In this document: in pieces, positions 1 to 36,142 of the stretch
Position numbering within the stretch: the stretch's first letter is position 1
How the letters are laid out: each line of letters starts with the position of its first letter
IMG/VR virus record: IMGVR_UViG_3300009104_000059
Location: 1 to 36,142 of that record
DNA from: a virus
Strand: one strand, 5' to 3'
Length of the DNA stretch: 36,142 bases
Notes under the pieces: generated by a model
Database searches by the model: none
What the model saw: only the letters and a program-made list of their open reading frames with translations
Told to the model about the DNA's origin: nothing
Position numbers and translations under genes: made by a program

Positions 1-269
1 TGAAAGTGTACGCTGACACATACGCGGCTGACGGAACGGCTGTATTAGTAGGATATAAAGGCTCGTCTGAAGCAGACGCGGCGGCATTCTACTGCCCATA
101 CATACCGTTAATGTCAAGTGGTGTTGTTCTTGATCCGGCAACTTTCGAACCAGTTGTGAGTTTCATGACTAGATATGGATATGTAGAGTTATCAAACACT
201 GCATCTTCACTAGGTAATGCGGCTGACTACTTAGGTGAGATCTCTGTAGCGAACGTAACTTTTGCGTAA
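1..269 (+). CDS. 23: Major capsid protein gp23, C-terminal end (partial)
   Basis: This is the last 88 or so codons of a gene that begins before the window; the reading frame is open from base 3 and ends at TAA 267-269. The GTG at base 6 is an internal valine codon, not a start. The protein carries the gp23-type pattern of an FYCPYIPL segment followed by a Phe-Glu-Pro-Val-Val segment and a TRYGYVEL segment, which in T4-like marine phages lies near the C-terminus of the major capsid protein that builds the prolate head. A strong terminator follows 22 bases after the stop, which fits a highly expressed gene closing its transcript. The base composition is less AT-rich than most downstream genes, as is common for gp23. 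The family call is from motif memory, not from a search. Confidence 0.85.
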   Translation, partial: KVYADTYAADGTAVLVGYKGSSEADAAAFYCPYIPLMSSGVVLDPATFEPVVSFMTRYGYVELSNTASSLGNAADYLGEISVANVTFA

Positions 270-290
270 GCGAGAGTAAACAGAATACGA

Positions 291-319
291 AAAGAGGCGG
301 TCTTCGGATCGCCTTTTTT
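291..319 (+). terminator. Intrinsic terminator after the capsid gene
   Basis: An 8-bp stem (295-302 with 307-314, one G-T pair) is closed by a TTCG tetraloop flanked by C and G, the especially stable cUUCGg type. It runs straight into six Ts at 314-319, and the upstream A-run can extend the stem. This is a textbook rho-independent terminator for the capsid transcript. Confidence 0.93.
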
Positions 320-375
320 CACGATTAAACTATCTTACAACCTTTAATATCTACACACATAATAAATTAAACCAT

Positions 376-399
376 TATTTTTGATGTCTGTCAAAAATA
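376..399. repeat. AT-only inverted repeat, operator-like
   Basis: Nine-base arms 376-384 (TATTTTTGA) and 391-399 (TCAAAAATA) are perfectly complementary and separated by six bases. It lies in the 222-base gap between the capsid gene and the next gene, with no other clear signal except a weak late-promoter-like CTAAATA at 429-435. It could be a protein-binding site or a weak hairpin. There is no T-run beyond the arm itself, so it is not called a terminator. Confidence 0.4.
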
Positions 400-477
400 T
401 GTAGTTTTATCTTTCAGAATACCTTTACCTAAATAAAGTCACGTTCCCAAGTTTAGAGGGAATTAATTTAAATTTGT

Positions 478-486
478 AAAGGAGGT
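478..486 (+). promoter_or_regulatory. Very strong Shine-Dalgarno
   Basis: AAAGGAGGT precedes the ATG at 492 by about six bases and matches nearly the whole anti-Shine-Dalgarno sequence. This is stronger than almost any other ribosome site in the window and predicts heavy translation of the small membrane protein. Confidence 0.75.
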
Positions 487-491
487 CCATT

Positions 492-725
492 ATGGATATT
501 TTACAAAAAGTTAAAGGATGGGCAAAAGGAATTGCTGATGTTGGTGTATCTTTCATCGCATTAGGAATCGTTTTAGAAATCCTTTTCAACGGTCAAGGTA
601 TTCCGTTCTGGCCAAATGTTTCTGTGATAGGAAACGTACAGGGCGTACTCTCTGGATTTAGTGATCAAGGATTACTAGGTTTAGTTGCGGTTTGGATACT
701 ATATCATATCTTCAACAGAAAATAA
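492..725 (+). CDS. Small two-helix membrane protein
   Basis: This 77-aa protein has a short amphipathic N-terminus (DILQKVKGWAKGIAD) and two hydrophobic stretches, about residues 17-34 and 58-73, separated by a Gly/Pro/Asn-rich loop; it ends in a basic tail (FNRK). Two closely spaced membrane helices, small size and a very strong ribosome site are compatible with a holin-like or membrane-remodelling role, but no family was recognised. The start is fixed by the strong Shine-Dalgarno. It lies between the capsid terminator and a GC-rich hairpin (752-780), so it may be its own transcript. The weak CTAAATA box at 429-435 could be its late promoter. Function is inference only. Confidence 0.7.
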   Translation: MDILQKVKGWAKGIADVGVSFIALGIVLEILFNGQGIPFWPNVSVIGNVQGVLSGFSDQGLLGLVAVWILYHIFNRK

Positions 726-751
726 TATAGATTTAGATAACTTAACCTAAA

Positions 752-780
752 CTTGGGTGGTACTTATGGTGCCACCTAAG
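752..780 (+). other. Hairpin downstream of the small membrane gene
   Basis: A 12-bp stem (752-763 with 769-780, two G-T pairs) is closed by a five-base loop. There is no T-run after it, so termination would be inefficient or factor-dependent; it could instead protect the 3' end of the upstream mRNA. Confidence 0.6.
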
Positions 781-788
781 CAATAACT

Positions 789-890
789 ATGATTACTTTA
801 TTCATTTTATCAAAACTCGGAATTCAAATATCAATAATCGTACTATTCACCAACATATTATCTAGCATATTAGGGTTTACTTTTTGGTAA
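789..890 (+). CDS. Possible 33-aa hydrophobic peptide
   Basis: An ATG at 789 opens a 33-codon frame that is almost entirely hydrophobic: it starts MITLFILSKLG, has an Ile/Leu/Val/Phe-rich middle, and ends GFTFW. It would form a single membrane helix. No convincing ribosome site precedes it, only the stem of the 752-780 hairpin, and the AT-rich base composition makes hydrophobic codons likely by chance. It lies next to another membrane protein gene and a lipoprotein gene, which is the only contextual support. It may simply be non-coding spacer. Confidence 0.25.
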   Translation: MITLFILSKLGIQISIIVLFTNILSSILGFTFW

Positions 891-893
891 ACC
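874..893. repeat. Inverted repeat just upstream of the sigma70 promoter
   Basis: GGTTTAC at 874-880 pairs with GTAAACC at 887-893 across a six-base loop. It sits directly before the -35 box of the promoter at 899-926, a typical place for a regulator site. On the minus strand it would not be followed by a T-run, so an operator is the simpler reading. Confidence 0.4.
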
Positions 894-898
894 AAAAC

Positions 899-926
899 TT
901 GACTTTCTACCAAAATACGTTATAAT
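899..926 (+). promoter_or_regulatory. Near-consensus sigma70-type promoter
   Basis: TTGACT at 899-904 and a perfect TATAAT at 921-926 are 16 bases apart. The expected start of transcription is about base 933, which is the A of the next gene's ATG, so the mRNA may have almost no leader. It differs from the ATAAATA late boxes used by the structural genes and predicts expression by unmodified host polymerase, possibly early in infection. Confidence 0.75.
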
Positions 927-932
927 GTACGT

Positions 933-1124
933 ATGAAAACAATAGCTATATTTTTTCTTTCGTTGTTTGTATTAACAGCTTGTTCAGTAAAAAATCCTGC
1001 ATTAGATTTAGGTAAAAGATGTATGCAAAAAGGTGATCAAATTGTATATTCTTACCTTTGGGTTTATGACAAAGAAGCTGGAAATAAAGCAACAAAAGAA
1101 ATGTGCGATCAAATCGCAGAATAA
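933..1124 (+). CDS. Small lipoprotein
   Basis: This 63-aa protein has a classic lipoprotein signal: MKT, a hydrophobic core, and a lipobox LTAC with Cys17 as the predicted acylated residue. The mature part is about 47 residues, hydrophilic, with two further cysteines that could pair. It would be exported and anchored in a membrane facing the periplasm. Small phage lipoproteins are often superinfection-exclusion factors or outer spanins; nothing here decides between these, and the mature part lacks an obvious long coiled coil. It is transcribed from the sigma70-type promoter just upstream, apparently without a leader, and stops 6 bases before hemB, so the two genes very likely share an mRNA. 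No known family was recognised. Confidence 0.75.
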   Translation: MKTIAIFFLSLFVLTACSVKNPALDLGKRCMQKGDQIVYSYLWVYDKEAGNKATKEMCDQIAE

Positions 1125-1130
1125 ACATAA

Positions 1131-1934: not shown

Positions 1935-1957
1935 TTTTATTACTTGTAAATATTTGT

Positions 1958-2239: not shown

Positions 2240-2242
2240 ATA
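2236..2242 (+). promoter_or_regulatory. T4-type late promoter box
   Basis: ATAAATA matches the late box read by the phage sigma-like gp55 in T4-like phages. It overlaps the stop of the preceding gene and is followed by a leader of about 70 bases with two hairpins before the ATG at 2319. Confidence 0.7.
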
Positions 2243-2250
2243 CAATTGAA

Positions 2251-2289
2251 CTAGACACCTGTCTAGTCTTATGCAGACAAAACTGCGTA
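2251..2289 (+). other. Two-hairpin mRNA leader
   Basis: The leader of the 2319 gene holds a perfect 6-bp stem with an ACCT loop (2251-2256 with 2261-2266). Right after it is a 7-bp stem with an ACAAAA loop (2270-2276 with 2283-2289, one G-T pair). Neither is followed by a T-run. The second hairpin resembles one in the leader before 8223 (CAG, an ACAAA loop, CTG), so a shared 5' RNA element is possible. Confidence 0.5.
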
Positions 2290-2318
2290 TAACATAGAAC
2301 GTTAAAGGGAGAAAAAAA

Positions 2319-2684: not shown

Positions 2685-2710
2685 TAATATAAACTAGTAA
2701 CGCATTGTAA

Positions 2711-20269: not shown

Positions 20270-23200
20270 ATGGCTGAGTTTAAACTAGGTAGAATTAAGT
20301 TTGTTTGGAAAGGTTCTTGGGCAACTACTACAACTTATTATGTTGATGACGTAATAAGATATGGTGGAAGAACTTACAATTGCGTAACTAATCACACATC
20401 TGGTACATTTCAAACTGATTTAGGTGCTGTAAAATGGCAACTAATGTCAGATGGTATAGAGTGGAAAAGTGATTGGGTTGCAAATACAACTTATAAACCA
20501 AATGATGTAGTAAAATACGGTGGTTACATTTATCTTGCTAACACTGGTCATACCTCAGCGGCAACAGTTGCTTTAGGATTAGAAGCCGATCAAGCTAAAT
20601 GGGATTTATTCATAGAAGGTTTTGATTGGAAATCTGATTGGACAATTTCTACAAGATATAAGAAAAACGATTTAGTAAAATATGGTGGTTCAGTTTATCT
20701 TTGTATAACAGAACACGAATCAGATAACACAACAGCAGTTGGTCTAGAAGGTCAACAAGCTAAATGGGAAATTTTTGGAAAAGGTTTTGTTTGGTCAGGT
20801 GACTGGGCAATCAATACTAGATATAAAGTTAATGACACCGTTAGATATGGTGGACAAATTTACGTTGCTATAACTGGACATACTTCAGCGGCAACTGAAG
20901 CAGATGGTTTAGAAGCCAACCAAGGACAATGGCAAGCCTTACACAAAGGAATTGAATTCAAAGGTGACCACGCAACAGCAACAAGATATAAAGTAAATGA
21001 TGTTGTAAAATATGGTGCAAACATTTGGATTTGTACAACACAACATACATCAACAGGAATTTTATCTGCCGATGAAGCTAATTGGTCAATTTTAATTCCA
21101 GGTATTGAATTTGAAGATACTTGGAGCAACTCTACAAATTATCAACCAGGTGACTTTGTTACTTACGGTGGATATAGTTATGTTGCAGATAGAAATAATA
21201 TTAATAAACTTCCACCTGATAACTCAAGTGATTGGACTTTATTCGTAACAGGATTTAATTTAAGAGGTGACTATAATGCCGCAACTGCATACAAACAAGG
21301 TGACGTTGTTAGAGTAGGCGGTTTCACTTATCTTGCAATTGCAGATGGAACAGGTAATAGACCACCAAATGTAACTAAATGGGATAAACTTAACGAAGGA
21401 TTATATTGGAAAGGTGCTTGGACAAATGCAACTTACTATGACAAAGGAGATATAGTAAGAGGTACAACAAACACTACTACAAGTTATCTTTGTATAACAG
21501 AACACACATCAAATAACGTTGGTCCATCAACAATTAATCAACCAGACTATCCACCAGGAGCAGGTGTTGATACTAGTGCATGGCAATTATTGGCGGGTGG
21601 TGCAGAATCTTCTGTATTAACAACGAAAGGTGATCTTTTAATTTATGGTCAATCAGGACCAGCAAGATTACCAATTGGTAAAGCAGGACAAACTTTAGTT
21701 GTAAATAATGCAGGTGACTTACCTGAATGGGGATACTTTGGTGCAATAGATCAAGTTTATTACACAGGTCCAGCAGGACAAGACAAACCTTCTCCAGATG
21801 CAGGAACAACACTTGACAAACCTTGGAAATCTTTAAGATATGCTTTATGGCAAATTGAACAAGGACCAAGAAATCCTCAAGGAACTTATTTGTTAGAAAG
21901 AAACAAAGCATTCATTCAAGAAGAAACTTTAGCTTGGATTAATGCACAAATTTCAGGAAACACTGCACCATTTACAAATGCTTACACATACGACGCTGTT
22001 AAATGTAGAAGAGATGCAGGATTTATGATAGATGCACTTTTATATGATTTAAGACATGGCGGAAATGAAAAATCAAGATATGCAACACTTAGAATTTCAA
22101 CACAAACAGAATTTGTAAATCATAAAGATGAATTAACAGCTTATCTTAATAGATTAGTTTATATTTCTCAACAATGTGTAGCCAATAATGCAGGTTATTC
22201 TGCTTTACAAGGTACAGTTAATCAACTTATTGATAATAATTACGTAACTGAATCTGCAGTATCAGGAGAAATTGCAAGTTATATAAAAATTGCAACAGAT
22301 TGTCTTGCGGCAGGAAATACAACTGGAATTCCAGCAGAAGAAGTTCCACAAACTACATTATTTGCTAAGAGCGGAACATATGAAGAAGTGTTACCTCTTT
22401 CAGTTAAAAAAGGATTAGCAATAGTAGGAGATGAATTAAGATCAACAATTGTTAAACCAGCAGGTCAAATTGTTGGTACAAGTGACACACAATATACATT
22501 ACAAGGTCTTGGTAGACTACAGGCAATTATATCTGATATAGTTACAAATAGTGCTGTAACACCAACACCAGTAGGCGGAGTTATAACTTTTACAACACCA
22601 GGTGCAGACTTAGGTTTTGTTAATGGAACTTATAATAACGTTGCAGTAACAGGTGGTTCTGGATCAGGATGTACAATGGATGTAACTGTATTATCATACA
22701 CAATTACTAGTCTTACTGTAAATCAACCAGGACAAAATTATGCAATTTCTGATTCATTAACAATTCCAGGAGCAACAATTGGATCTGATGGAGTATTCAC
22801 AGTTAATAGTGTTACAACAGGAAATAATTTAACACAAAATACAGATGCACCAGCAGGTTCAGGAGCGGCAGGAACAGCGGCGGCGGCAATTGCACAAAAT
22901 ATTTACGACCATATAGATTTCAAAGTTAATGCTAATGGATCTGATCCAGCATTGACAGGAACAAATACTGCTCAAGCAGATGCAGGTTATTCAGATGCAA
23001 GATTAAGATTGTTAGCAAATATGGATTTTGTTGCTTTAGAAGTTGCAGAATTTGTACAAAGAGCAAATCCATCTCATAGTAATTTTAAAGATAAATGTTT
23101 AGCAGATGTCAAATATTATCTACGAGCAATAATGGATGATATGCAATATACTGGAAATTACAAATCATTAAAAGCATCTGATTCATATATTAATTCTAGA

Positions 23201-26041
23201 CTTACTACAGGTTCAGCTACAAGCGATATGTTCTATGTAAGAAATGCAACAGGAATTAGAAATATGACAGTTCAAGGATTAAATGGAACATTAGGTTCTG
23301 CAAACGCTTATGGAACAAAACGTCCAACAGCAGGAGCATATGTATCATTAGATCCAGGCTGGGGAACAACACACGAAGAAGTATGGATTACTTCTAAATC
23401 ACCTTATATACAAAACGTAACAACATTTGGAACAGGATGTACTGGATTAAAAGTAGATGGTGCATTACACGATGGCGGTTTTGATTCTGTTGTTGCAAAT
23501 GACTTTACGCAATTATGTGATGATGGTATAGGTGCATGGATTACAAATTTAGGTAGAGTAGAACTTGTATCAGTATTTTCTTATTACGCACACATCGGTT
23601 ATCTATCAGAAAATGGTGGAAAACTTCGTGCTACAAACGGTAACTCATCTTATGGTGACTATGGTTGCGTTGCAGAAGGAGTTGATTCTTCTGAAACTGC
23701 TATAACAGGAACAGTTGATAATCATAGTGAAGACGCAGATGTTGCCAATGTAATGACAGATGGTAATAAAATTTTAGCATTCGAATATAATAATGCTGGA
23801 AGACAATATTCTGGTGCTACACTTACAATATCAGGAGATGGTTATGGAATTACAGGTGAAACTGCAACTTATAATACTGGTGGTGTTTACAAAATTAGAT
23901 TATTAGAAACTAATACAGTAACAAGTAACCTTGGTGGTGCGACATATATGTCTGCTACTAACAATGCACAAACAGGTACAGCTACACAAATTACAATAGC
24001 TAACGCAGATAGTAACGCCAGTGGTGCATACACAGGTATGGCAATATGGATTACAAAAGGTAAAGGTGTAGGTCAATATGCATACATCGACGCTTACAAT
24101 TCTGCAAGTAAAGTTGCAACTGTTAAAAAATATTCAGACGACGCGGCAGGATGGGAAAGATATGGCGGAGACGCAGTTGAAACTCTTTTAGATGCTACAA
24201 CAGAATATACAATAGAACCTAGAGTAGTTATTGGTGCTCCAAATAATGATGGTAGTACAGCAGTTAGACAAGCAGTTGCAAGAGCAATTGTAACTTCTGA
24301 AAAGATTTCTTCAGTAAGAATTATAGATTGTGGTGCAAGTTATACTTCAGCACCAGCAGTAACATTTACTGATCCTAATAATACTACAGATGCTCCAGTA
24401 CAATCATACATAGATGATGGTGTACTAGGTCAACCAACTTTCACTGCAGGTGGAACAGCTTATAATACTGCAAGTGTAACAATTACAGAAGAACCTACAG
24501 CTAAAAACATAACAGCTATTTCACAAGCCACTGTAGCTGTTGTTACATCAGCAGGACATAATCTAGTTGACGGAACTAAAGTAACATTTGCAAGTGTTGG
24601 TGGAATGTCAGAATTAAACACAGGTGTATGGTATTACATTAAAACATTAACAGTAGATACATTTGGATTATATACTAACGATGATTTAACTGCTGGATTA
24701 GATTCTACAAACTTTACAACATACACTTCAGGTGGAACTGCAACACCATTTGGTGGACACAGAGATGAATTCCAAAACGGAAGATATATTCAAGTAGAAG
24801 GTTTATCAAAAGTTCCACAAACAGGATCAAATCTAGAATTTGATGGAATTTCAACTGAAACATTTCCTTATGCATATACTCTTATAACTGCAAACAAGGC
24901 TTATATAGAAGATGAAGTAATAGCATGGTTTAATACAACTTATCCAGGAATACACAATGCTGGACAAAATACAAAATGCGAAAGAGATGTTGGATATGAA
25001 ATTGATGCAATGGCATATGATATAAAATACGGTGGTAATACAGAAACTATTAGAGTTGCTAAAGCATACTGGCAAGGTGTTACTTCTCAATTAGCGGCAG
25101 GTGAACAAGCATACGCAGTTGCAGTTAATAACAAAGTAAAAGAAATGCTTAACGATTATATTTTAGATAACGTAGCTTGGACAACAACACAAAGTCCAGT
25201 TGTTACATCACAAACAACTAATTCTAATAATGGTGAGTTAGGTGTAAAAGACAAAGTTACAAGTTTAATTAAAACTTTAAATGATGTAATTGAAAATGGT
25301 TTAACTTCTGTACCAACTACACAAGGATTAAACAATCCATACTTTAAATTAGTAAGTGTACAAAAATTACGTGGTACTCAAGCTCCATATTCAGCATTAT
25401 TACAAATTAGTCCACAAATGACAGCCGCTCAAGCTCCAGCACATGGAACTGGTTTATCTGTTAGACTTAGATATTCACAAGTTAGATTAACTGGTCACGA
25501 TTTCCTAGGAGTAGGAACTGGTAACCAAGCATCTACAAATTATCCTGGAACGCCAAATAGAACTAACGACCAAGAAAGAGAAACTGTTGAAAGAGGTGGT
25601 GGTAGAGTATTCTTTACTGCAACTGACCAAGACGGTAACTTTAGAGTTGGTGACTTGTTCTCAGTACAACAGGCGACTGGTATTGCATCATTAAATGCAG
25701 ATGCATTTAACATTTCAGGATTACAAGAACTTCAGTTAGGAGATTTAACACTAGGCGGAACATCTGCTTCTGTTAATGAATTCTCTACTGACGGTACATT
25801 TGCGGCAAATAGCGACAAAATTGTACCAACACAAAGAGCGATAAGAACATATGTTTCATCACAAATTGGTGGTGGTGCAAGTGCTATTAACGTAAATACT
25901 ATTACTGCTGGTCAAATTGTGATCACTAGTAATACAATAAGTACAACAACAGGAGCAAGTATCCAAATTAACGCTGGTGTTAACTTCAAAAAAGGAGTTG
26001 CAGGAGCGCCATTGGCAATGAATTACTTGATCCATAGTTAA
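20270..26041 (+). CDS. Giant tail-fiber protein (1923 aa), paralog of the 1717-aa fiber
   Basis: Residues about 11-443 hold eight Trp/Tyr modules as in the paralog. The beta-helix region begins near 496 (QVYYTGPAGQDKPSPDAG) and is interrupted by a helical module (about 545-690) with NKAFIQEETLAWIN, AVKCRRDAGFMIDALLYDLRHGGN. Related helical modules recur at about 874-982 and 1541-1687 (NKAYIEDEVIAWFN, TKCERDVGYEIDAMAYDIKYGGN). Strands such as MFYVRNATGIRNMTVQG, GCTGLKVDGALHDGGF and VSVFSYYAHIGYL match the 1717-aa fiber closely. The C-terminus (SQVRLTGHDFLGVGTGN to TIKITAGQ-like end) also matches. It lacks the YCF48-like segment of its paralog. A receptor-binding fiber role is inferred. The helical modules are also familiar from cyanophage fibers. 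Confidence 0.82.
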   Translation: MAEFKLGRIKFVWKGSWATTTTYYVDDVIRYGGRTYNCVTNHTSGTFQTDLGAVKWQLMSDGIEWKSDWVANTTYKPNDVVKYGGYIYLANTGHTSAATVALGLEADQAKWDLFIEGFDWKSDWTISTRYKKNDLVKYGGSVYLCITEHESDNTTAVGLEGQQAKWEIFGKGFVWSGDWAINTRYKVNDTVRYGGQIYVAITGHTSAATEADGLEANQGQWQALHKGIEFKGDHATATRYKVNDVVKYGANIWICTTQHTSTGILSADEANWSILIPGIEFEDTWSNSTNYQPGDFVTYGGYSYVADRNNINKLPPDNSSDWTLFVTGFNLRGDYNAATAYKQGDVVRVGGFTYLAIADGTGNRPPNVTKWDKLNEGLYWKGAWTNATYYDKGDIVRGTTNTTTSYLCITEHTSNNVGPSTINQPDYPPGAGVDTSAWQLLAGGAESSVLTTKGDLLIYGQSGPARLPIGKAGQTLVVNNAGDLPEWGYFGAIDQVYYTGPAGQDKPSPDAGTTLDKPWKSLRYALWQIEQGPRNPQGTYLLERNKAFIQEETLAWINAQISGNTAPFTNAYTYDAVKCRRDAGFMIDALLYDLRHGGNEKSRYATLRISTQTEFVNHKDELTAYLNRLVYISQQCVANNAGYSALQGTVNQLIDNNYVTESAVSGEIASYIKIATDCLAAGNTTGIPAEEVPQTTLFAKSGTYEEVLPLSVKKGLAIVGDELRSTIVKPAGQIVGTSDTQYTLQGLGRLQAIISDIVTNSAVTPTPVGGVITFTTPGADLGFVNGTYNNVAVTGGSGSGCTMDVTVLSYTITSLTVNQPGQNYAISDSLTIPGATIGSDGVFTVNSVTTGNNLTQNTDAPAGSGAAGTAAAAIAQNIYDHIDFKVNANGSDPALTGTNTAQADAGYSDARLRLLANMDFVALEVAEFVQRANPSHSNFKDKCLADVKYYLRAIMDDMQYTGNYKSLKASDSYINSRLTTGSATSDMFYVRNATGIRNMTVQGLNGTLGSANAYGTKRPTAGAYVSLDPGWGTTHEEVWITSKSPYIQNVTTFGTGCTGLKVDGALHDGGFDSVVANDFTQLCDDGIGAWITNLGRVELVSVFSYYAHIGYLSENGGKLRATNGNSSYGDYGCVAEGVDSSETAITGTVDNHSEDADVANVMTDGNKILAFEYNNAGRQYSGATLTISGDGYGITGETATYNTGGVYKIRLLETNTVTSNLGGATYMSATNNAQTGTATQITIANADSNASGAYTGMAIWITKGKGVGQYAYIDAYNSASKVATVKKYSDDAAGWERYGGDAVETLLDATTEYTIEPRVVIGAPNNDGSTAVRQAVARAIVTSEKISSVRIIDCGASYTSAPAVTFTDPNNTTDAPVQSYIDDGVLGQPTFTAGGTAYNTASVTITEEPTAKNITAISQATVAVVTSAGHNLVDGTKVTFASVGGMSELNTGVWYYIKTLTVDTFGLYTNDDLTAGLDSTNFTTYTSGGTATPFGGHRDEFQNGRYIQVEGLSKVPQTGSNLEFDGISTETFPYAYTLITANKAYIEDEVIAWFNTTYPGIHNAGQNTKCERDVGYEIDAMAYDIKYGGNTETIRVAKAYWQGVTSQLAAGEQAYAVAVNNKVKEMLNDYILDNVAWTTTQSPVVTSQTTNSNNGELGVKDKVTSLIKTLNDVIENGLTSVPTTQGLNNPYFKLVSVQKLRGTQAPYSALLQISPQMTAAQAPAHGTGLSVRLRYSQVRLTGHDFLGVGTGNQASTNYPGTPNRTNDQERETVERGGGRVFFTATDQDGNFRVGDLFSVQQATGIASLNADAFNISGLQELQLGDLTLGGTSASVNEFSTDGTFAANSDKIVPTQRAIRTYVSSQIGGGASAINVNTITAGQIVITSNTISTTTGASIQINAGVNFKKGVAGAPLAMNYLIHS
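20300..21600 (+). repeat. Eight coding repeats, Trp/Tyr module (fiber 2)
   Basis: Eight units of about 48-60 codons with W-x-Y, N/G-D-x-V and Y-G-G-x-x-Y positions. Units 2-4 are the most alike (WKSDW, then TYKPNDVVKYGG or RYKKNDLVKYGG), suggesting internal duplication after the split from fiber 1. Unit 8 has a longer loop before its final Trp. Confidence 0.75.
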
Positions 26042-26863: not shown

Positions 26864-27844
26864 ATGCCAGCAACAAGTCTTAGAGGATTATTAGGAACTA
26901 AACAAGATACTTTCGTAGCATTTGGCGAAGAAAATCTTGAGAAGGGTAGAATATATGTCTACACTCAAGGTGCCAACTATTCGAGATTATGGTGCGGATT
27001 TTGTTTTCACCCAGGTGAAGCAGGAACGGCTACAATAGAAGTTTGGGGAGCTGGTGGTAGTGGTGCAGAAATGTGCTGTTGCGGATTTGGCTTACCTGGT
27101 AATTCAGCGGCATACGTAAAAAGAACTATCTCATTAGCGGCTAATGGTTATATTTGCGGATGTACTGGTCAATCCTGTGGTAATGGAGATACATTATGTC
27201 ACAGAGGTTGCTCTGAACCAACTTTCATGAATATTTCCAAAGATGGCACAGCAGGTGGATGTACTTGTATTTGTGCTCAAGGTGGAGCAGGTGGCGTTTC
27301 TTACTGTTCTTCAAACGAATCATTTTATTGTTGTTATAAAGCAAACGGTTTTTGTGTTACAAAAACTGAAAACGATCACTGCGGTATTGTATGTAATATG
27401 TGCGATGGAAAACATATCGCTCAAGGATATTGCGGAAATATAATGTGTCCAGGAAGAACTTCTTGTGTATCAGCATTTGGCTGTCACCCAAGTTGTCCTT
27501 GTCAATTCCACTGGCACAATCCGACACCGGCAGGAATGTTCAGTGAAAACGGAGCATATATCACTTACAATACAGAAAATAATAATGGATTTTCACAATG
27601 GTCAGGTCACGGAGGTCACCAATTGGAAGCATCACTAGGTGCTGGAAGATTCCCAACTGGTGGAATACCTTGGGCAACTTGCTGGGGAGCAAGTAAGGCT
27701 TGTAACTGTTATGAAGCAGATCCATGTATACCACACGTTCCAGTAGGAATGGGAGGTCACGGACCAATGCCTTGCGATGGAGTAAGAGATCACGCAAACA
27801 GAGGTGGCCATGGTGGAGTTAGAATTAAATGGATTACAGGATAG
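26864..27844 (+). CDS. Cysteine- and glycine-rich adhesin candidate (copy 1)
   Basis: This 326-aa protein has about 31 cysteines (near 10 percent), spread over residues 44-308. The N-terminal third carries EVWGAGGSGAEMCCCGFGLPGN, in which the V-W-G-A-G-G-S-G part resembles glycine-rich receptor-binding tips of T-even phages. Motifs CTGQSCGN, GGCTCICAQGG and FYCCYKANGFC follow. The C-terminus (PCDGVRDHANRGGHGGVRIKW) is shared with the next two genes. Cysteines are at matching places in all three, so they are structural, as disulfides or metal ligands. A tail-tip adhesin is the likeliest role. AAGGAG lies 18 bases before the ATG, farther than usual; an in-frame TAA at 26840 rules out an earlier start. 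Confidence 0.72.
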   Translation: MPATSLRGLLGTKQDTFVAFGEENLEKGRIYVYTQGANYSRLWCGFCFHPGEAGTATIEVWGAGGSGAEMCCCGFGLPGNSAAYVKRTISLAANGYICGCTGQSCGNGDTLCHRGCSEPTFMNISKDGTAGGCTCICAQGGAGGVSYCSSNESFYCCYKANGFCVTKTENDHCGIVCNMCDGKHIAQGYCGNIMCPGRTSCVSAFGCHPSCPCQFHWHNPTPAGMFSENGAYITYNTENNNGFSQWSGHGGHQLEASLGAGRFPTGGIPWATCWGASKACNCYEADPCIPHVPVGMGGHGPMPCDGVRDHANRGGHGGVRIKWITG

Positions 27845-27853
27845 GATAAAATT

Positions 27854-28861
27854 ATGGCATCATTAACGACATTATTGCAAACAAAATATGATGGGATAGC
27901 GGCTGGAGAAACTAACCTGGAAAAAGGTACAATTTATACTTTTTATCCTTCCAACGATTATAACACAAACTTCCAATGTCACGTATGTTGGAAACCACCT
28001 GCAAACGGTACAGCACTTTTAGAAGTTTGGGGAGCGGCTGGATCAGGTGCAGAAATGTGTTGTTGCGGTGGAGGAATACCAGGTAACCCAGGTGGTTATG
28101 CTAAAAAACAACTAGCGGCTTTTGGTGCAAGTTGGTCAGATTGTTTTGTTTGTTCAGTTATTGGTTTATCATGCGGTAACTCAGATACTTTAAGTCACAG
28201 AGGACGTTCAGAACCAACTCAAGTTTGTTGGTTTGCCGGCGGAGCAGATGGATGTATTTGTTCTGAAGGTGGTCAAGGAGGATGTTCTATTTGTTCTACT
28301 GGTAATGCATTATATTGTTGTTTTGTAGCACAAAATTATTGTCATACACAAGGTGGAAGCACTTATTGTGGAATAATTTGTAATTATAGAGATGATGGTG
28401 GAAACAGTTATGACGGTGCAGATTATTGTGCATTTGCTTATGGCGGAGATGTAAACTGTTATGGTGGATTTAGTTGTTATTACTTTAGAGGATGTCAACC
28501 AAACTGTAACTGTAGATATATTGCAGTAATTAAAGTTCCACCTGGAATGGTTTCAGAGTGCGGTGGAGAAGTTCAATACGCACACGATGAAGATAGTGAA
28601 AAAGTTTATCACTCAGGTTCAGGCGGAATTATGGGAGTTATGGAACCTCTTAATTTAATGACAAGAAGTCCTACACAAGGTTCACCTTACAACGCTTGTT
28701 GGACAGGTAATGACTCTTGCGGTTGTTATCAAGATCAAGGATGTATTCACTTCTTTCCAGGAGGAATACCAGGACAAGGACCAACACCGTGCGATGGATA
28801 TAGAGATCACGCATGGAGAGGTGGAAACGGAATATTAAGAATTAAGTTTATAGCTTCGTAA
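27854..28861 (+). CDS. Cysteine- and glycine-rich adhesin candidate (copy 2)
   Basis: This 335-aa paralog of the gene before it has about 30 cysteines. It keeps LEVWGAAGSGAEMCCCGGGIPGN, DGCICSEGGQGGCSICS, LYCCFVAQNYC, RGCQPNCNC and the ending TPCDGYRDHAWRGGNG. The N-terminal MASLTTLLQTKYDGIAAGETNLEKGTIY part aligns with copies 1 and 3 (NLEKGRIYVY, NLEKGYIYAY). Middle regions between the conserved cysteines differ most, as expected for variable binding loops on a fixed scaffold. It starts 9 bases after copy 1 without a terminator between, so the genes are cotranscribed. Confidence 0.72.
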   Translation: MASLTTLLQTKYDGIAAGETNLEKGTIYTFYPSNDYNTNFQCHVCWKPPANGTALLEVWGAAGSGAEMCCCGGGIPGNPGGYAKKQLAAFGASWSDCFVCSVIGLSCGNSDTLSHRGRSEPTQVCWFAGGADGCICSEGGQGGCSICSTGNALYCCFVAQNYCHTQGGSTYCGIICNYRDDGGNSYDGADYCAFAYGGDVNCYGGFSCYYFRGCQPNCNCRYIAVIKVPPGMVSECGGEVQYAHDEDSEKVYHSGSGGIMGVMEPLNLMTRSPTQGSPYNACWTGNDSCGCYQDQGCIHFFPGGIPGQGPTPCDGYRDHAWRGGNGILRIKFIAS

Positions 28862-28867
28862 AAAGGA

Positions 28868-28874
28868 ATAAATA
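28868..28874 (+). promoter_or_regulatory. Possible T4-type late promoter box
   Basis: ATAAATA is only 5 bases before the ATG at 28880. If used, transcription would start at about the start codon, so this match may be chance or serve as an extra promoter within the cysteine-rich trio. Confidence 0.35.
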
Positions 28875-28879
28875 TTATT

Positions 28880-29851
28880 ATGGCAACATTAAAAAACATA
28901 TTAACAACAAGACAACCGGCAAGTATGTCAGAAAATAACCTAGAAAAAGGTTACATTTATGCATATTCTCCGGGTACTCAATTTGCTAATTTTTGTAATG
29001 GTGTTTGTTGGACAGCTATAGCAGATGGAAAAGCTATTGTAGAAATTTGGGGAGCTGGTGGATCTGGTTCTCGTATGTGTTGTTGCGGAGATGGATTACC
29101 AGGTAATGCAGGAGCATATTCTAAAAAAACAATTCAAGTAAATCAAGGTGATACAATTACAGCTACTTTAGGAATGGCTTGTAGAGCTCACCCACTTTGT
29201 CACTCAGGATGTAGTGATTCAACTCAATTATGTTACATAACAACTACTGGAAGTGCAGATGGTTGTATGTGTGCAAGAGGTGGATATGGTGGAAAATCTA
29301 TGCGTACAACTGGTACATCTTTCTATTGTTGTTACAGTGCAGAAGGTTTCTGTACTAATAGATGTAACAATGACAATTGTGGAATGACTTGTAACTGGTG
29401 TAATGGTGCATGGGAAGCCTTAGCATATGGTGGAGATATAAATTGTTGTGGACAAATAGGCTGTACTAGTTGGTTCGGCTGTTGCCCTCACTGTAAATGT
29501 TTCTTCCAAAGACACGCTCCTATACCTTCAGGACTTTTTGCGGAAAATGGAGCATTAATTACGTTCCAAACAGAATCAGATGGAACACCTATGTCTAACT
29601 GGTCAGGTAACCAATTATTCCAATATTATGCGGCTCTTAATTTGGCTACTAAATCACCAAGACAAGGAAATCCAAGAGCTTATTGTTGGAGATCAGACAG
29701 ATCTTGCGGTTGTTATGAATCACAAGGATGTGCTAATTTCTTACCAACAGGAGCAGGTGGACTACCGCCAATGGCTTGTCCAGACGTTAGAGACCACGGA
29801 ATACGTGGAGGACACGGAGGAGTTAGAATCAAGTTTATAGCTTCGGCATAA
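28880..29851 (+). CDS. Cysteine- and glycine-rich adhesin candidate (copy 3)
   Basis: This 323-aa third paralog has about 30 cysteines: NGVCW, RMCCCGDGLPGN, DGCMCARGG, FYCCYSAEGFC, NDNCGMTCNWCN, FGCCPHCKC, RSCGCYESQGC and the end DHGIRGGHGGVRIKF. It is closer to copy 1 in the middle part (YCCYxAxGFC and NDxCGxxCNxC) than to copy 2. EIWGAGGSGSRMCCC contains the glycine-rich strand. The three genes in a row, with conserved cysteines and variable loops, look like an expanded adhesin set. A fold with metal or disulfide crosslinks is inferred; no zinc-finger family is recognised. Confidence 0.72.
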   Translation: MATLKNILTTRQPASMSENNLEKGYIYAYSPGTQFANFCNGVCWTAIADGKAIVEIWGAGGSGSRMCCCGDGLPGNAGAYSKKTIQVNQGDTITATLGMACRAHPLCHSGCSDSTQLCYITTTGSADGCMCARGGYGGKSMRTTGTSFYCCYSAEGFCTNRCNNDNCGMTCNWCNGAWEALAYGGDINCCGQIGCTSWFGCCPHCKCFFQRHAPIPSGLFAENGALITFQTESDGTPMSNWSGNQLFQYYAALNLATKSPRQGNPRAYCWRSDRSCGCYESQGCANFLPTGAGGLPPMACPDVRDHGIRGGHGGVRIKFIASA

Positions 29852-30631: not shown

Positions 30632-31609
30632 ATGACTGAAAATAATCCAATATCTAGACCAAAAGCATTTTTTTTAAATGGGGGAATGGGCAGAATAATT
30701 TGTGCCATCCCTGCCCTTGAAAAATACTATAATGAATCTAACGATAAAGATTTTATTATAGTAATAGAAGGTATCCAAAATATCTTAGATGGTCATCCAA
30801 CATTAGATTCTAAAACATTTGACTATGGTCATAAAAATTTATTCCACACTAAACTTGTAAAAATGGATGTGATAAGTTTAGAGCCATATAGAGTATGGGA
30901 ATACTATAATCAAAAATGTAATATAACTCAAGCATTTGATATTTTAATTAATAACAAAGGCGTTAGAGAATTATCAGCACCTACAATTAATCTAAGTCAA
31001 GAAGAATTACTTGCAGGGAAAAAAGCAGTTAAAGAAATTAAAGATAAACTTAAAAAAGAAAAAGTAATTGTTTTACAACCTTTTGGACGAGGCATTCAAC
31101 AAATAGATAATAGTTTTGTAGATAAAACTTGTCGAAGTATGGAATTTAAAAATCTAAAAAGTATAATAAGAAAATTACAAGCACAAGATTATGCAATTAT
31201 ATTAATGGCAGAATTTGGAATTGAATTAAAAGGTGAGAAATATCCAGATGAAGTAGCAATGCCTGAAGGAATTGATTTAAGAAAATGGTTAGCAATTATA
31301 AAAAATTGTGATCATTTTTTAGGTTGTGATAGTGTAGGTCAACATTTAGCCTATATAGGTGGAACAGAAGCAACAGTAATAATTGGTGCAACGTTCCCAG
31401 TTAATACATCATATCCTAAAACAAAAGGAATTAATATTATAGATATGGGACAAATAGATAGAGAATATGATCCAATAAGAATAACAAACGATGAACAAGT
31501 TAGTAGACATAATGAAAAATTAATGTGGATGTCTGATGAAGTAGAAGATTATGTTGTAAATGTAATATTAGGAAAACAAAAAACTGACGAGGAAGAACTA
31601 AATGAATAA
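30632..31609 (+). CDS. GT9-like glycosyltransferase (copy 1)
   Basis: This 325-aa protein has a GT-B layout like heptosyltransferases. The N-terminal strand-loop is FFLNGGMGRIICAIPALE (13-30), VIVLQPFGRG (about 145-155) begins the second Rossmann half, and CDHFLGCDSVGQHLAYIGG follows, with D233-S-V-G-Q-H238 where GT9 enzymes have D-T/S-G-P-x-H. GATFPVNTSYP closes the site. GT9 enzymes transfer heptose or related sugars from nucleotide donors to lipopolysaccharide. The Pro of the usual GPxH is replaced by Gly, so it is a divergent member. It has a close paralog at 33400 with the same EPYRVWEYY motif and overlaps the carbamoyltransferase by 8 bases. Substrate unknown. Confidence 0.7.
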   Translation: MTENNPISRPKAFFLNGGMGRIICAIPALEKYYNESNDKDFIIVIEGIQNILDGHPTLDSKTFDYGHKNLFHTKLVKMDVISLEPYRVWEYYNQKCNITQAFDILINNKGVRELSAPTINLSQEELLAGKKAVKEIKDKLKKEKVIVLQPFGRGIQQIDNSFVDKTCRSMEFKNLKSIIRKLQAQDYAIILMAEFGIELKGEKYPDEVAMPEGIDLRKWLAIIKNCDHFLGCDSVGQHLAYIGGTEATVIIGATFPVNTSYPKTKGINIIDMGQIDREYDPIRITNDEQVSRHNEKLMWMSDEVEDYVVNVILGKQKTDEEELNE

Positions 31610-33413
31610 ATCAGGTTATATTGCGGCAATAGCCAGAGGACATAATGCAGGAATATGTTTATTAAAAGATGGAGAAATTGTTTTTGCAATAGAAGAAGAA
31701 AGATTATCTAGACACAAATACGATGGTGGTCCTTATCGTTCAATGATGGAAGTATTAAAATATACTGACAAAATAGATTATTTAATTGTAGCTCATACAC
31801 AACCATTAGATGATCCTACTACTGGTAAAGTAGATTATACTCATGATGATGTATATACAGGAATAGCAAGAAAATTAGGTTTAATAGATAGAAAAGCAAA
31901 TTTAAAACAACACCCACAAGTAATTGACCTAAGTCATATTCATCATAAGTTACACGCCGGTTGTGCTTTTTATAGATCAGGATTTGATAAAGCCTGTTCG
32001 GTTATTGTTGATGGAGCAGGAACTTTTATGCCTGTTAATAATCAACTTACAGGAGATTTATGGATGTTTGAAATAGAATCTATTTTTGATTGTTCATATC
32101 CTAATAATATAACAACTGTATGGAAACACTACGGTACTGGTTCTGCGTCTCCTGGAGCACATATGACAAAAATGGATTCATCTAAAATGGGAGAACCTGG
32201 TAAAACTCATGAATGTTTATTTTCAGATGTAGCAGGAATTGTTAAAGTTTATGAAGCAGTTACTCAATACTGTGGATTCTCAGCCATTGAAGCAGGAAAA
32301 ACAATGGGATTATTTCCTTATGGAAAACCTAATGATAGAATTCCTCCATTATTTCATAATGAAATAAAATATATGTCTTTATCTAATAGACATTTAATAA
32401 TTCCTACATATCCTAATGCGGCAATAGTAAATGAAGGCATTTATGATTATTTAGATGAAACACCTACAGACAATCCTGATGTTACTAAACTACCTAATAG
32501 AAGAGATTTAGCCTATGCTTGTCAAACAGAAACTCAAGCAGAAGTTTTAAAATTAATTTATAAAGCTGTAGAAATGACAGGTCAAAAAAATGTTGTATTA
32601 TCTGGTGGATATGGATTAAATTGTGTAGCAAATTATTGGTATCTTGAGTCTTTAAGAAAAGATGGAATTAATTTATTTGTTGAACCAGTATCAAATGACG
32701 CCGGAACAGCCATTGGAGCGGCTCTTTTATTTTATTATGGTATGTCAGAAGATATGACAAAAAGACCACTTACTACATTATGTCAAGGTCCAGAAAGAAA
32801 ATATACATTAGAAGAAATAGAAAAATTAGCAAATAAACCTGGTGTTGAATTGATGGACGCAAACGATAAAGATGTAGTTAAATTAATGATAGAAAAAAAT
32901 ATTGTTTCAATGTTTCAAGGAAAATCAGAAAGTGGTCCAAGAGCATTAGGTAACAGAAGTATTTTATTTGATCCTTCATTTAAAGATGGTAAAGATTTTG
33001 TTAATATAGTTAAACGAAGAGAATATTTTAGACCATTTGCAGGATCTATATTACATGAACACGTACACGAATGGTTTGATTTAAGAGGAATGGAAGAAAG
33101 TCCTTATATGATGTATGCTGTAAATTGTCAAGAAGGAATAGCAGAAAAAATTCCTAGTATTATACACGTAGATGGTACTTGTAGAATACAAACAGTTAAA
33201 GAAGAACAAAATCCATTGTATTATAAATTAATTAAAGAGTTTTATAATCAAACAAAAATACCAATTGTGTTTAATACGTCATTTAATTTAGCTGGAGAAC
33301 CACTTGTAGAAACATTAGAAGACGCTATATGGACTCTTGAACAATCTCTTTTAGAATATTTGTATCTTCCAGAATATGGAAAAATGATAAAGGTAAAAAA
33401 TGTTAAGAAATAG
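31602..33413 (+). CDS. Carbamoyltransferase, NodU/CmcH/TobZ family
   Basis: This 603-aa protein matches O-carbamoyltransferases, which move a carbamoyl group from carbamoyl phosphate to a sugar or other hydroxyl through a carbamoyladenylate. The N-terminal Kae1-like domain begins with GHNAGICLLKDG (13-24) and EEERLSRHK (31-39). The histidine cluster H112-I-H-H-K-L-H118 fits the metal-binding site, and IVDGAGTFM follows. VVLSGGYGLNCVANY lies near 325-340. The C-terminal domain shows ESGPRALGNRSILFDP (G445-P-R-A-L-G-N-R-S453), YFRPFAGSIL and IVFNTSFNLAGEPLV. Length is normal for the family. It overlaps both GT9-like neighbours (8 and 14 bases), so the trio is translationally coupled; a carbamoylated surface sugar is the likely product. 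Confidence 0.88.
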   Translation: MNKSGYIAAIARGHNAGICLLKDGEIVFAIEEERLSRHKYDGGPYRSMMEVLKYTDKIDYLIVAHTQPLDDPTTGKVDYTHDDVYTGIARKLGLIDRKANLKQHPQVIDLSHIHHKLHAGCAFYRSGFDKACSVIVDGAGTFMPVNNQLTGDLWMFEIESIFDCSYPNNITTVWKHYGTGSASPGAHMTKMDSSKMGEPGKTHECLFSDVAGIVKVYEAVTQYCGFSAIEAGKTMGLFPYGKPNDRIPPLFHNEIKYMSLSNRHLIIPTYPNAAIVNEGIYDYLDETPTDNPDVTKLPNRRDLAYACQTETQAEVLKLIYKAVEMTGQKNVVLSGGYGLNCVANYWYLESLRKDGINLFVEPVSNDAGTAIGAALLFYYGMSEDMTKRPLTTLCQGPERKYTLEEIEKLANKPGVELMDANDKDVVKLMIEKNIVSMFQGKSESGPRALGNRSILFDPSFKDGKDFVNIVKRREYFRPFAGSILHEHVHEWFDLRGMEESPYMMYAVNCQEGIAEKIPSIIHVDGTCRIQTVKEEQNPLYYKLIKEFYNQTKIPIVFNTSFNLAGEPLVETLEDAIWTLEQSLLEYLYLPEYGKMIKVKNVKK

Positions 33414-34347
33414 TGCTATCTTTTTAAATGGCGGTGCTGGAAGAATGATTAGTTCCATACCTGCATTAGAAAATTTTGAAAAAGAAAATCCTAATGATGA
33501 TTTTGTAATAATTTGTGAAGGTGGAACTGATGTTTTAAAAGGTCATCCAACATTATATTATAAAACATATGACAATTGGCATAAAGGACTTTTTAAAGAA
33601 TTAATAAAAGATAGAAATTGTATTAATCCTGAACCATATAGAGTATGGGAATACTATACTCAAAAATGTAGTCTTGCTCAAGCATATGATATTGCAATTA
33701 ATAATAAAGGTATAAGAGAATTACAAAAACCTACAATAAGATTAAGCAAAGATGAACTATTATATGCTCGAAAAATGTTAACTGAAGTAAAAGAAAAATG
33801 CAAAAAAGATAAAATAATTGTTATTCAACCCTTTGGAAGAGGTGTTAGAAAAGAAGATAAAGATGTAGTTGACATTACCGGCAGAAGTATGGAAACTAAA
33901 AATCTTTATAATATAGTAAGAAAGTTATCTAAAAAATATGCTGTAATGATTATGACAGAAACACCATTAGAATTTAATAAGCATATGTCATCACCTGTAG
34001 CTACACCACAAAACGTACATATTAGAATATGGATGGCTGTAATTAGACAATGTGATCACTTTGTAGGATGTGACAGTGTAGGTGCACATATGGCTTATAC
34101 TTTTGACACAACTACAACATCTATTATAGGATCTACATTTCCTATTAATACATCATTTCCAGATTATGAAAAATTTGATGTCATTGATTTGGGCAAAGAA
34201 GACCGTGTTTATAGCCCTATAAGAATTACTGTAGATGAATTTTCAGACCGTATAAACGAGGGTATTATGGAGATGAATGACCAACAAGAGCAACAAGTTA
34301 TTGCATCTGTCAATAGAATGATAAAACACGGTAAAAATACCCGTTAA
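33400..34347 (+). CDS. GT9-like glycosyltransferase (copy 2)
   Basis: This 315-aa protein is a paralog of the 325-aa protein on the other side of the carbamoyltransferase. Shared segments are FLNGGAGRMISSIPALE, EPYRVWEYYTQKCSLAQAYDI, NNKGIRELQKPTI, IVIQPFGRG and CDHFVGCDSVGAHMAY (D225-S-V-G-A-H230), then GSTFPINTSFP. It begins inside the end of the carbamoyltransferase (14-base overlap). Parts of the DNA are nearly identical to copy 1 (around GAACCATATAGAGTATGGGA), so the duplication is not ancient or is maintained. The two copies may add successive sugars, or the same sugar at two places, with carbamoylation between. Substrate unknown. Confidence 0.7.
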   Translation: MLRNSAIFLNGGAGRMISSIPALENFEKENPNDDFVIICEGGTDVLKGHPTLYYKTYDNWHKGLFKELIKDRNCINPEPYRVWEYYTQKCSLAQAYDIAINNKGIRELQKPTIRLSKDELLYARKMLTEVKEKCKKDKIIVIQPFGRGVRKEDKDVVDITGRSMETKNLYNIVRKLSKKYAVMIMTETPLEFNKHMSSPVATPQNVHIRIWMAVIRQCDHFVGCDSVGAHMAYTFDTTTTSIIGSTFPINTSFPDYEKFDVIDLGKEDRVYSPIRITVDEFSDRINEGIMEMNDQQEQQVIASVNRMIKHGKNTR

Positions 34348-34384
34348 GCCCAATATCTACTTAAACTTTATCCTAATAAAATTG

Positions 34385-34391
34385 GTAAATA
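34385..34391 (+). promoter_or_regulatory. Late-promoter-like box, one mismatch
   Basis: GTAAATA differs from ATAAATA at the first base. It is 22 bases before the ATG at 34414, a spacing like the other late boxes, with AAGAAGGAA as ribosome site. Confidence 0.4.
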
Positions 34392-34413
34392 CACTTAAAG
34401 AAGGAATCTTCAT

Positions 34414-34836
34414 ATGTTTGATGTGTCAAAACTATTTGGAAAAGGCGATAAAAATACGCTATTAATGAAAAATGGGTTAAATTTTTCATATAATGGTCCG
34501 TATGCTACAGTTGTAGAAGGATTAATTTTAGACAGATTTCATGTTGGAACTTTTTGTTCTGCAGAATATACAATATCTATAGACTATGATACTAATAATA
34601 AAGAAATTATTAGAGCACTAGTAGTAGGTAGCCCATCAAATAGTTCTGTAACAATTTACGGAAGATCAAATTTAGGAAATGATTTAGTAAAATTAACTAG
34701 TACAGTTACTAATTCTTATGTAGAATTAAAACTAGATCCTGAACAAAAAACATCAACAACAAAATATGACGGTTCAAAAGCTATTTTCAAAGCAACATAT
34801 TATCAAACAATGAATGCTTTGGTAGGTGGTGCATAA
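34414..34836 (+). CDS. Small structural-type protein (140 aa)
   Basis: The N-terminus is MFDVSKLFGKGDKNTLLM. The rest is beta-rich, with a repeated pattern of short strands (TVVEGLILDRFHVGTFCSAEY, IIRALVVGSPSNSSVTIYGRS, YVELKLDP). No known domain is identified with confidence, but free proteins of this size and start are familiar beside fiber genes in T4-like marine phages. It restarts the structural block after the glycan cassette. A decoration or fiber-base role is inferred from context only. Confidence 0.6.
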   Translation: MFDVSKLFGKGDKNTLLMKNGLNFSYNGPYATVVEGLILDRFHVGTFCSAEYTISIDYDTNNKEIIRALVVGSPSNSSVTIYGRSNLGNDLVKLTSTVTNSYVELKLDPEQKTSTTKYDGSKAIFKATYYQTMNALVGGA

Positions 34837-34855
34837 TATATGAAGTTATATTTTG

Positions 34856-34862
34856 ATAAATA
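34856..34862 (+). promoter_or_regulatory. T4-type late promoter box
   Basis: ATAAATA in the context TTGATAAATATAG is 15 bases before the ATG at 34878. The ribosome site is weak. Confidence 0.65.
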
Positions 34863-34877
34863 TAGAGTATAAAGACT

Positions 34878-36142
34878 ATGGCAGTAAATTATAAACAGTT
34901 TGAAGCAAACTATGGATTTAAGAGTCCAGGATTTACGGTTGACAATCTTGGTAATGTAATAGTAAGAACAATTACTAATACATATACTCCAACTGCGACT
35001 GACTCTATAGATTATACAGTTACAGAATCTACAAATAATTTTAGTATTACAGATAAAGAAAGCAATAATTTAGGATCAAATCCTGTTCTTGATTTAAAAA
35101 GAGGTACAACTTACGTTTTTAGCCTTGATACTACATCTGTTACATTTAATATTTTTGCACCTGATACAAATAATAATTCAGTACCTGGTGAGCTTTATAA
35201 TACTGGGTTATCACATACTACAAGTATTAATGGACAAAATCTTTCAACTGATACATGGACAGTTCAACAAACTTGGCAACAAGAAACAACAGCATATAGT
35301 AGACCTGTAACTGTTGTTGTACCTAATACTGTTGGAACATCCTTAGAAGGTAAACAAATTCCTGTAATTATATCTTTACACAATGCAAATCAATCATCTG
35401 GAAATGCTATTACACATTTAAATTATCTAACAGATAAAATTATAGTTGCTCCTCAAGGTTATAGTAAAGAATGGAATGTTGGATATTCATCTAGTAAAGC
35501 AGATGATATAGCATATCTTGATGCAATAATAGATAAGTTAGCAACTTTTGATAACGTAGATATAAGAGAAATTTCAATTCATGGACAAGGACTTGGTGGT
35601 CAAATGGCACACCAATATGCTTTACAAACAACAAAAACAAATATTAAAAATGTAATTATTGAATCAGCATTATTTAATGAAGATCAATATAGAGAAAATA
35701 CAAACATTTTCTACAAAATGGCTTTATCTAATCTAGGAGATTCAACAGCAGTTTCTTGGACACCTGTAACACCTTTAACTAAATCAAAAGTTGTAATGTT
35801 TCATGGTGAAGAAGATTTAGCGTATCCATTTAATGGAGGAGTTGTAGCAGGCGAAACTATTTTAACAGCGGCAACTACAATATATGGATGGGCAAAAGCC
35901 GTTGGTACTAGTCAAAGTAAATTAACATCTGGAACACTACAAAGTGATGGAGCAAGTTTATATTCTTATAATTCAGGTGCAGTAGCATTATATGGCTATC
36001 CTAATGTAGCACAATCTTGGGAAGGAGCTGTAAAAACAAGCATTCAAACAAAAGTAAATGAAACAGCAACACCTAGTTCATTTTTAGATATTCCTACAGC
36101 TTCAACTGTATCAGGAGCAAGTGCTCAAGCAAAAACTAAAGG
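34878..36142 (+). CDS. Fiber-like protein with degenerate alpha/beta-hydrolase domain (partial, 3' end beyond window)
   Basis: The frame is open from ATG 34878 to the window edge (421 codons). Residues about 45-130 resemble a cupredoxin-like beta domain (NPVLDLKRGTTYVFSLD) without copper ligands. Residues about 158-395 match the LpqC/PHB-depolymerase-type esterase fold: IPVIISLHN, IIVAPQGYSKEWNVG, ISIHGQGLGGQMA, VVMFHGEEDLAYPFNGG and ALYGYPNVAQSWEG. In active members the second to last three read GxSxGG, HGxxDxxxPYxGG and GGGHxWPG. Here the nucleophile Ser is Gly238, Asp313 is kept, and the His position is Gln379, so classical esterase activity is not expected. The domain may now serve as a binding module on a fiber. 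Its late promoter is at 34856. Confidence 0.72.
   Translation, partial: MAVNYKQFEANYGFKSPGFTVDNLGNVIVRTITNTYTPTATDSIDYTVTESTNNFSITDKESNNLGSNPVLDLKRGTTYVFSLDTTSVTFNIFAPDTNNNSVPGELYNTGLSHTTSINGQNLSTDTWTVQQTWQQETTAYSRPVTVVVPNTVGTSLEGKQIPVIISLHNANQSSGNAITHLNYLTDKIIVAPQGYSKEWNVGYSSSKADDIAYLDAIIDKLATFDNVDIREISIHGQGLGGQMAHQYALQTTKTNIKNVIIESALFNEDQYRENTNIFYKMALSNLGDSTAVSWTPVTPLTKSKVVMFHGEEDLAYPFNGGVVAGETILTAATTIYGWAKAVGTSQSKLTSGTLQSDGASLYSYNSGAVALYGYPNVAQSWEGAVKTSIQTKVNETATPSSFLDIPTASTVSGASAQAKTK

Follow-up and report, generated by a model that had tools for sequence, protein, structure and literature searches.

Absence of the GCWGC site from a lineage of large marine phages and the cleavage that probably removed it

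Why would a phage genome lack every copy of one short palindrome? The question is raised by the 36,142-nt viral DNA of IMG/VR record IMGVR_UViG_3300009104_000059 (the window, meaning this whole stretch), from which the site GCWGC, where W is A or T, is entirely missing. We conclude that the site was almost certainly purged under cleavage. That a Type II restriction enzyme of the hosts drove this purge in a lineage of mostly uncultured jumbo phages is the explanation we favour as a whole, with distinctly less assurance.

The missing site in the window

From position 1 to 36142 the plus strand contains neither GCAGC nor GCTGC, and GCWGC is consequently absent from both strands, as a preliminary description of this DNA had claimed. 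The 15-20 sites which that description expected were too few, and the effect is stronger than was thought: a maximal-order Markov model predicts about 43 sites, and 500 shuffles of synonymous codons within genes, which keep the proteins and codon usage of 29 chosen open reading frames (ORFs; all on the plus strand and covering 96% of the window), predict 43.0 ± 2.8 (range 33-53, z -15). This codon null is thus rejected, and codon usage does not account for the deficit. Both strands are hit, as for a palindromic target, with 0 GCAGC against 27.8 and 0 GCTGC against 15.2 in the codon null summed over frames.

The loss is specific to W, again as first described, since GCSGC (S being C or G) occurs 51 times against 10.1 in the codon null; 46 of these are GCGGC (against 7.2) and 5 are GCCGC. 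Other near neighbours are not depleted under the same null either: CCWGC/GCWGG lies slightly above it (148 against 137), ACWGC/GCWGT and GAWGC/GCWTC lie close to it, and GTWGC/GCWAC (174 against 168.2, z 1.25) exhibits no clear excess. Weaker deficits were found for CATG (37 against 74) and GCGC (7 against 15). GATATC is missing as well (0 against 4.5 expected), yet it is present elsewhere in the genome, with 13 of 26 expected copies in the near-identical contig G001.

The choice of alanine codons reflects the avoidance. Among the 51 alanine codons that precede GC in the window, 46 are GCG, 5 are GCC and none is GCA or GCT, while elsewhere GCA (505) and GCT (261) predominate over GCC (52) and GCG (28), which bears out the codon pattern initially noticed. 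The four-alanine run placed near 22875 was found at 22877-22888 on the plus strand, spelled GCG GCG GCG GCA and thereby avoiding GCWGC. A comparison with relatives is provided by the 603-aa Nol-like carbamoyltransferase encoded at 31602-33413 on the plus strand, in whose alignment GCWGC occurs at 19 positions in at least one site-bearing relative. At 5 of these the amino acids are unchanged in the window, which spells three of them GCGGC, whereas locus L056 has GCCGC at three; two lineages therefore found different silent spellings. At the remaining 14 positions the window has another amino acid, which a protein identity of 55-70% leads one to expect.

Phage relatives and the breadth of the purge

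The sequence comparisons point to the window being a piece of a large marine phage of the T4 superfamily, akin to the PA5oct/Rak2-like jumbo myoviruses. The terminase of contig G001, which shares 91% of the 31-mers of the window, is at most 53% identical to those of isolates, PA5oct-like phages being the best (47-53%, among the best 12 of 2507 matches listed). Its RecA-like protein is 62-67% identical to those of Phosso, Atu_ph07, Vibrio 2.275.O, XbC2, CBB and GAP32 (best 8 of 2410 listed), a group that we take to be the Rak2-like phages. As fragments, the window and the contigs nearest to it span 36-89 kb; relatives reach 268 kb and 335 kb. Membership in the Kyanoviridae was rejected, as the terminase is only 31% identical to that of Mosig and the shared genes seen are the carbamoyltransferase and tail fibres. 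The 335-kb relative, G068:C57, contains transfer RNAs and a permuted transfer-messenger RNA (tmRNA) at L357:2056-2400 (RF01849 alpha_tmRNA, 145 bits, E 2.1e-41; tag ANDNYAPEMAMAA), which hints at an alphaproteobacterial host for the lineage of this relative.

The absence extends to the rest of the genome and beyond, so that, with the codon null rejected, both refutations envisaged in the preliminary description fail. Giving site figures for contigs and sets as observed/expected GCWGC unless another word is named, G001 has 0/85 in 89 kb and G002, whose carbamoyltransferase is 95% identical to that of the window, 0/94 in 88 kb. The site is also missing from divergent relatives, including the 186-kb G044 (0/207, or 0/212 by the codon null; GCAGC 0, GCTGC 0, GCGGC 204, GCCGC 117), the 113-kb G046 (0/131) and the distant contigs G047, G048, G049, G010, G057 and G072:C2. 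Pooling ten contigs picked as site-free and not near-duplicates gave 0 GCWGC in 866 kb where 905.5 were expected. Other relatives are partly purged (G012 7/87, G051 3/55, G068:C57 35/413, G018 130/316, G019 73/204) or unpurged (G061 51/51, G062 69/62 and, by the codon null, G027 294/290 and G021 116/112).

To rank this depletion, the codon null was applied to 26 sets, as many as 48 Type II-like sites being tested in each. With z -12 to -29, GCWGC was the most depleted of 46-48 sites, or followed AGCT alone, in the 11 site-free sets, and it ranked first in the five partly purged ones; over these 16 avoiding sets it was first in 13 and second to AGCT in three (AGCT 0/310 in G046, 0/226 in G047, 0/124 in G072:C2). 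No avoidance was seen by the codon null in pieces of the nearest isolates by terminase and RecA, which keep GCWGC unlike the clade of the window (Vibrio 2.275.O 60/53, Atu_ph07 46/50, Phosso 81/92, PA5oct 43/45), or in the T4-like phages Mosig (39/47) and P-SSM2 (51/53). Nor is the site avoided by the marine phages HTVC010P (51/46), HTVC008M (62/68), Melnitz (61/68) and S-SSM7 (46/55), by three AG-345 viruses, or by nine pieces of cyanophages, pelagiphages, methylophages or single-cell viruses; HMO-2011 is mildly low (98/151). The SAR11 setting to which the preliminary description alludes is not upheld, as these nine pieces and the SAR11 phages HTVC010P and HTVC008M keep the site and the terminase and RecA are nearest to those of PA5oct/Rak2-like jumbo phages.

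Within the clade, the 80 loci with the best terminase matches (71-100% identity) divide into 66 without GCWGC, 5 with few and 9 with a normal number. The 80 best loci of a SegE-like GIY-YIG nuclease comprise 54 with none, 1 with few, 17 with a normal number and 8 too short to judge. In both samples the 80 loci are the best of 597 relatives, so these fractions hold for near relatives only. Probes made from the carbamoyltransferase and from the C-terminal part of a 1923-aa tail-fibre-like protein (20270-26041, plus strand) recovered mostly site-bearing loci. The trait thus follows a clade of core genes rather than those two genes. One early comparison of loci omitted those shorter than 8 kb (L041).

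The terminases of 99 loci were reduced to 64 distinct proteins. On their maximum-likelihood tree the zero label needs 6 changes against a mean of 14.5 when shuffled, and none of 500 shuffles was as low. Where a contig had been cut, each row took the label of its own 20-kb piece, so that G012 and G051 count as zero despite 7/87 and 3/55 over the whole contigs. A site-bearing clade is nested among site-free ones: within a supported group (100/99), five normal rows (L230, L231, L234, L235, G061) form a clade whose sister comprises 31 zero rows. At a terminase identity of 55%, L331, from a metagenome-assembled genome (MAG) titled Rickettsiales, still has 0/18 GCWGC and 0/37 AGCT. A single-sequence terminase query of genome contigs found no relative, whereas an alignment query found seven loci, of which 3 are zero, 2 low, 1 normal and 1 too short.

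The agent of cleavage

The preliminary description proposed selection against a restriction or nuclease site of the host. Selection against a cleavage site is well supported, because the loss is W-specific, empties both strands, is accompanied by synonymous respelling, is common to divergent relatives and is absent from comparison phages; ownership of the cutter by the host is likely but unproven. Cleavage at unmodified GCWGC would long have been lethal to the phage lineage. Point changes have removed the site from 0.87 Mb of contigs in several divergent lineages, kept Ala-Ala pairs becoming GCGGC or GCCGC. Protection of the genomes seems to come from the lack of the site itself, since searches of phage records, mostly fragments, yielded no match to three DNA methyltransferase families (PF00145 0/44, PF01555 0/37, PF02086 0/23).

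Purging is not limited to GCWGC. Other sites are wholly lost in relatives, namely CATG in G027 (0/249), GCGC in G021 (0/73), AGCT in G046, CTAG at six loci (e.g., L413, 0/39), GTAC in L429, L447 and L461, and ACGT in L434 and L440, both of which bear GCWGC. Among the comparison phages, Atu_ph07 lacks CCWGG (0/27), P-SSM2 and AG-345 viruses lack CCGG and GCGC, HTVC010P (L470, 0/54) and AG-345-P14 lack CTNAG, HTVC008M (L471) lacks TCGA (0/74), and HMO-2011 (L469) is wholly purged of GATC, CCWGG and CGWCG. Restriction leaves behind a pattern of this kind, in which the lost Type II-like sites shift from phage to phage, as a change of restriction enzymes would cause. Subclades within L396-L468 and L196-L260 were additionally seen to be without AGCT, CTAG or GTAC, and Mosig (L177), like HTVC010P, HTVC008M and HMO-2011 a marine alphaproteobacterial phage, to be wholly purged of ACGT.

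Elimination of Type II restriction sites is already known, and the purge is an instance of it; its novelty is the motif in this phage group and the breadth. A Type II restriction enzyme of the host is the simplest reading and most likely the cutter, in agreement with that phenomenon (PMC6286503). The hosts, possibly marine Alphaproteobacteria, would carry a GCWGC enzyme, subclades also lacking AGCT, CTAG or GTAC would meet a second one, and subclades with normal GCWGC would have hosts devoid of the GCWGC enzyme. Two MAGs have PF00145 matches, but their phage contigs, C57 and C2, have none. The MAG Rickettsiales MED657 (L333, G072:C15) carries a Type II restriction-modification locus with two adjacent C5 methyltransferases, the second being nearest to M.HhaI by sequence; beside them, two ORFs, each matching another part of a single REase_II model, resemble a split restriction gene. 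The MED657 C5 methyltransferase has a match in 9 of 32 family genomes and is 98% identical in one other.

Several results weigh against host restriction. No GCWGC-specific enzyme was found and no host identified. Restriction systems are often patchy, as the distribution of the MED657 methyltransferase illustrates, and a purge constant down to the 55% terminase identity of L331 is long for such a system. The carbamoyltransferase and tail-fibre probes found only 10 of 58 and 7 of 78 loci site-free, so that phages with these genes do not all have the trait. The MAG links conflict, naming Neomarinimicrobiota, Euryarchaeota, Betaproteobacteria, Pelagibacter and Rickettsiales, possibly through binning errors. 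As for the tmRNA, it occurs in 1 of 78 pieces scanned, its bearer G068:C57 is only partly purged, and none of 385 genomes of the class of MED657 has a close match to it (best 70-83%, partial; MED657 itself E 4e-6).

A single constant nuclease keeping the clade free of GCWGC is a tentative proposal, which we hold less probable than not. It would be either a near-universal host system in an abundant marine lineage, perhaps an alphaproteobacterial one thought to be poor in restriction, or an endonuclease of the phages, which would perhaps hit host DNA, self-purging replacing modification. If so, the complete loss of other palindromes from SAR11 phages would be a further case of it.

Taken separately, the version in which a phage-encoded GCWGC endonuclease destroys host DNA, the phages having purged their own site instead of modifying it and other subclades having other specificities, is unlikely. 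It stays alive through the constancy of the purge over divergent phages. It also agrees with the occurrence of some wholly purged palindrome in many of the phages looked at, the SAR11 phages HTVC008M and HTVC010P included, and with a statement that SAR11 genomes lack reported restriction-modification systems (PMC9516812). The candidate genes speak against it. The gene clusters found in every site-free lineage and nowhere else are limited to tail fibres, a carbamoyltransferase-N protein and, next to UvsW, a 427-aa protein that evolves fast and has a 391-aa protein in its place in the GCWGC-bearing G027; coverage of the genes is incomplete. Comparative gene tables of the contigs reveal no gene that convincingly tracks the avoidance. 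Nothing discriminating site-free from site-bearing phages emerged when ten G001 proteins were scanned against Pfam and PHROG, or from a family scan of 139 of the 322 ORFs of the 335-kb relative (25 of 74 Pfam and 25 of 142 PHROG families listed). HNH-type matches to the REase_II model, which could offer a nuclease, are sporadic (4 of 37 records or genomes) and do not discriminate.

The SegE-like GIY-YIG nuclease, one conserved copy of which is found in 11 of the 37 records searched, does not follow the avoidance either: it is common to site-free and site-bearing phages, with identities of up to 89% across the two kinds, and no alignment column separates them, the labels of G037 and G038 having been assigned by hand from their earlier site counts. 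In G044 this gene (L270:2968-3390) adjoins gp46/47-like genes and is not obviously a homing enzyme.

Type IV restriction is far less probable still. Phage DNA with modified cytosines would be cut at modified GCNGC by BisI-like host enzymes, some of which cut GCWGC better than GCSGC (PMC4926085); GCSGC is in excess in the window. Mutational loss, by which a GCWGC cytosine methyltransferase would create 5-methylcytosine that then deaminates, would likewise be motif-specific, but it predicts an excess of GTWGC/GCWAC that is not clear, and the respelled Ala-Ala pairs were changed at the W position instead; we consider it highly improbable. Selection at the mRNA level was rejected, both strands being empty and kept Ala-Ala pairs respelled. 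Composition, codon-pair bias or a sequencing artefact is the least credible of all, as the codon-preserving null was rejected in the window and in the avoiding sets, and loci with the same IMG sample number are of both kinds (L425 0/17.6 against L421 10/13.7; L426 0/23.7 against L427 18/22.7).

Known enzymes, literature and neighbouring genes

BbvI is a Type II enzyme that cuts GCWGC. So are TseI and ApeKI (PMC4926085). All three have exactly the avoided site and spare GCSGC; they are linked to these phages by specificity only, and none was found here. A GCWGC target in uncultured aquatic bacteria is that of M.AbaBS3I, an m4C (N4-methylcytosine) methyltransferase, but it belongs to freshwater lake Chloroflexi and is listed without a restriction system (PMC6329791). 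A prophage GCDGC methyltransferase (PMC8936443) was considered and not linked to the clade of the window.

The preliminary description knew of no account of such avoidance. For this phage group that stands, as searches of the literature on marine or jumbo phages turned up no description of GCWGC elimination that we recognised; the available parts of two papers on marine and aquatic jumbo phages hold nothing on restriction sites (PMC9123017, PMC12619734), and a Sargasso Sea paper has GCWGC only within a 16S primer (PMC11094077). It does not stand in general: elimination of Type II sites in phage genomes is already described, being reported for 7.5% of cases, and GCWGC is one of the sites examined (PMC6286503). 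There too a short palindromic site is removed from double-stranded DNA phages, whereas in the clade of the window the elimination is common to many divergent relatives. Pelagiphage clades differ in GANTC density, and in SAR11 the methylation of GANTC is linked to the cell cycle (PMC9516812); these too are marine phages, and their clades differ in a host methylation motif, but both the phages and the motif are others than here.

A wholly purged site is an enzyme fossil, which predicts that GCWGC is cut or modified in the hosts of this group of phages. Either activity would be measurable in single-cell genomes or methylomes, giving a handle on host identity. Zero sites against about 906 over divergent phages is more than expected from one restriction system in one host. 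As SAR11 phages are purged of other palindromes while their hosts are reported to be without restriction-modification (PMC9516812), the question of who cuts becomes a general and testable one.

Two arrangements of neighbouring genes in the window were also observed. Three tandem paralogous Cys- and Gly-rich proteins of 323-335 aa, with the motif CCCG, are encoded at 26864-29851, and at 30632-34347 two mutually similar proteins (325 and 315 aa) flank the Nol-like carbamoyltransferase.

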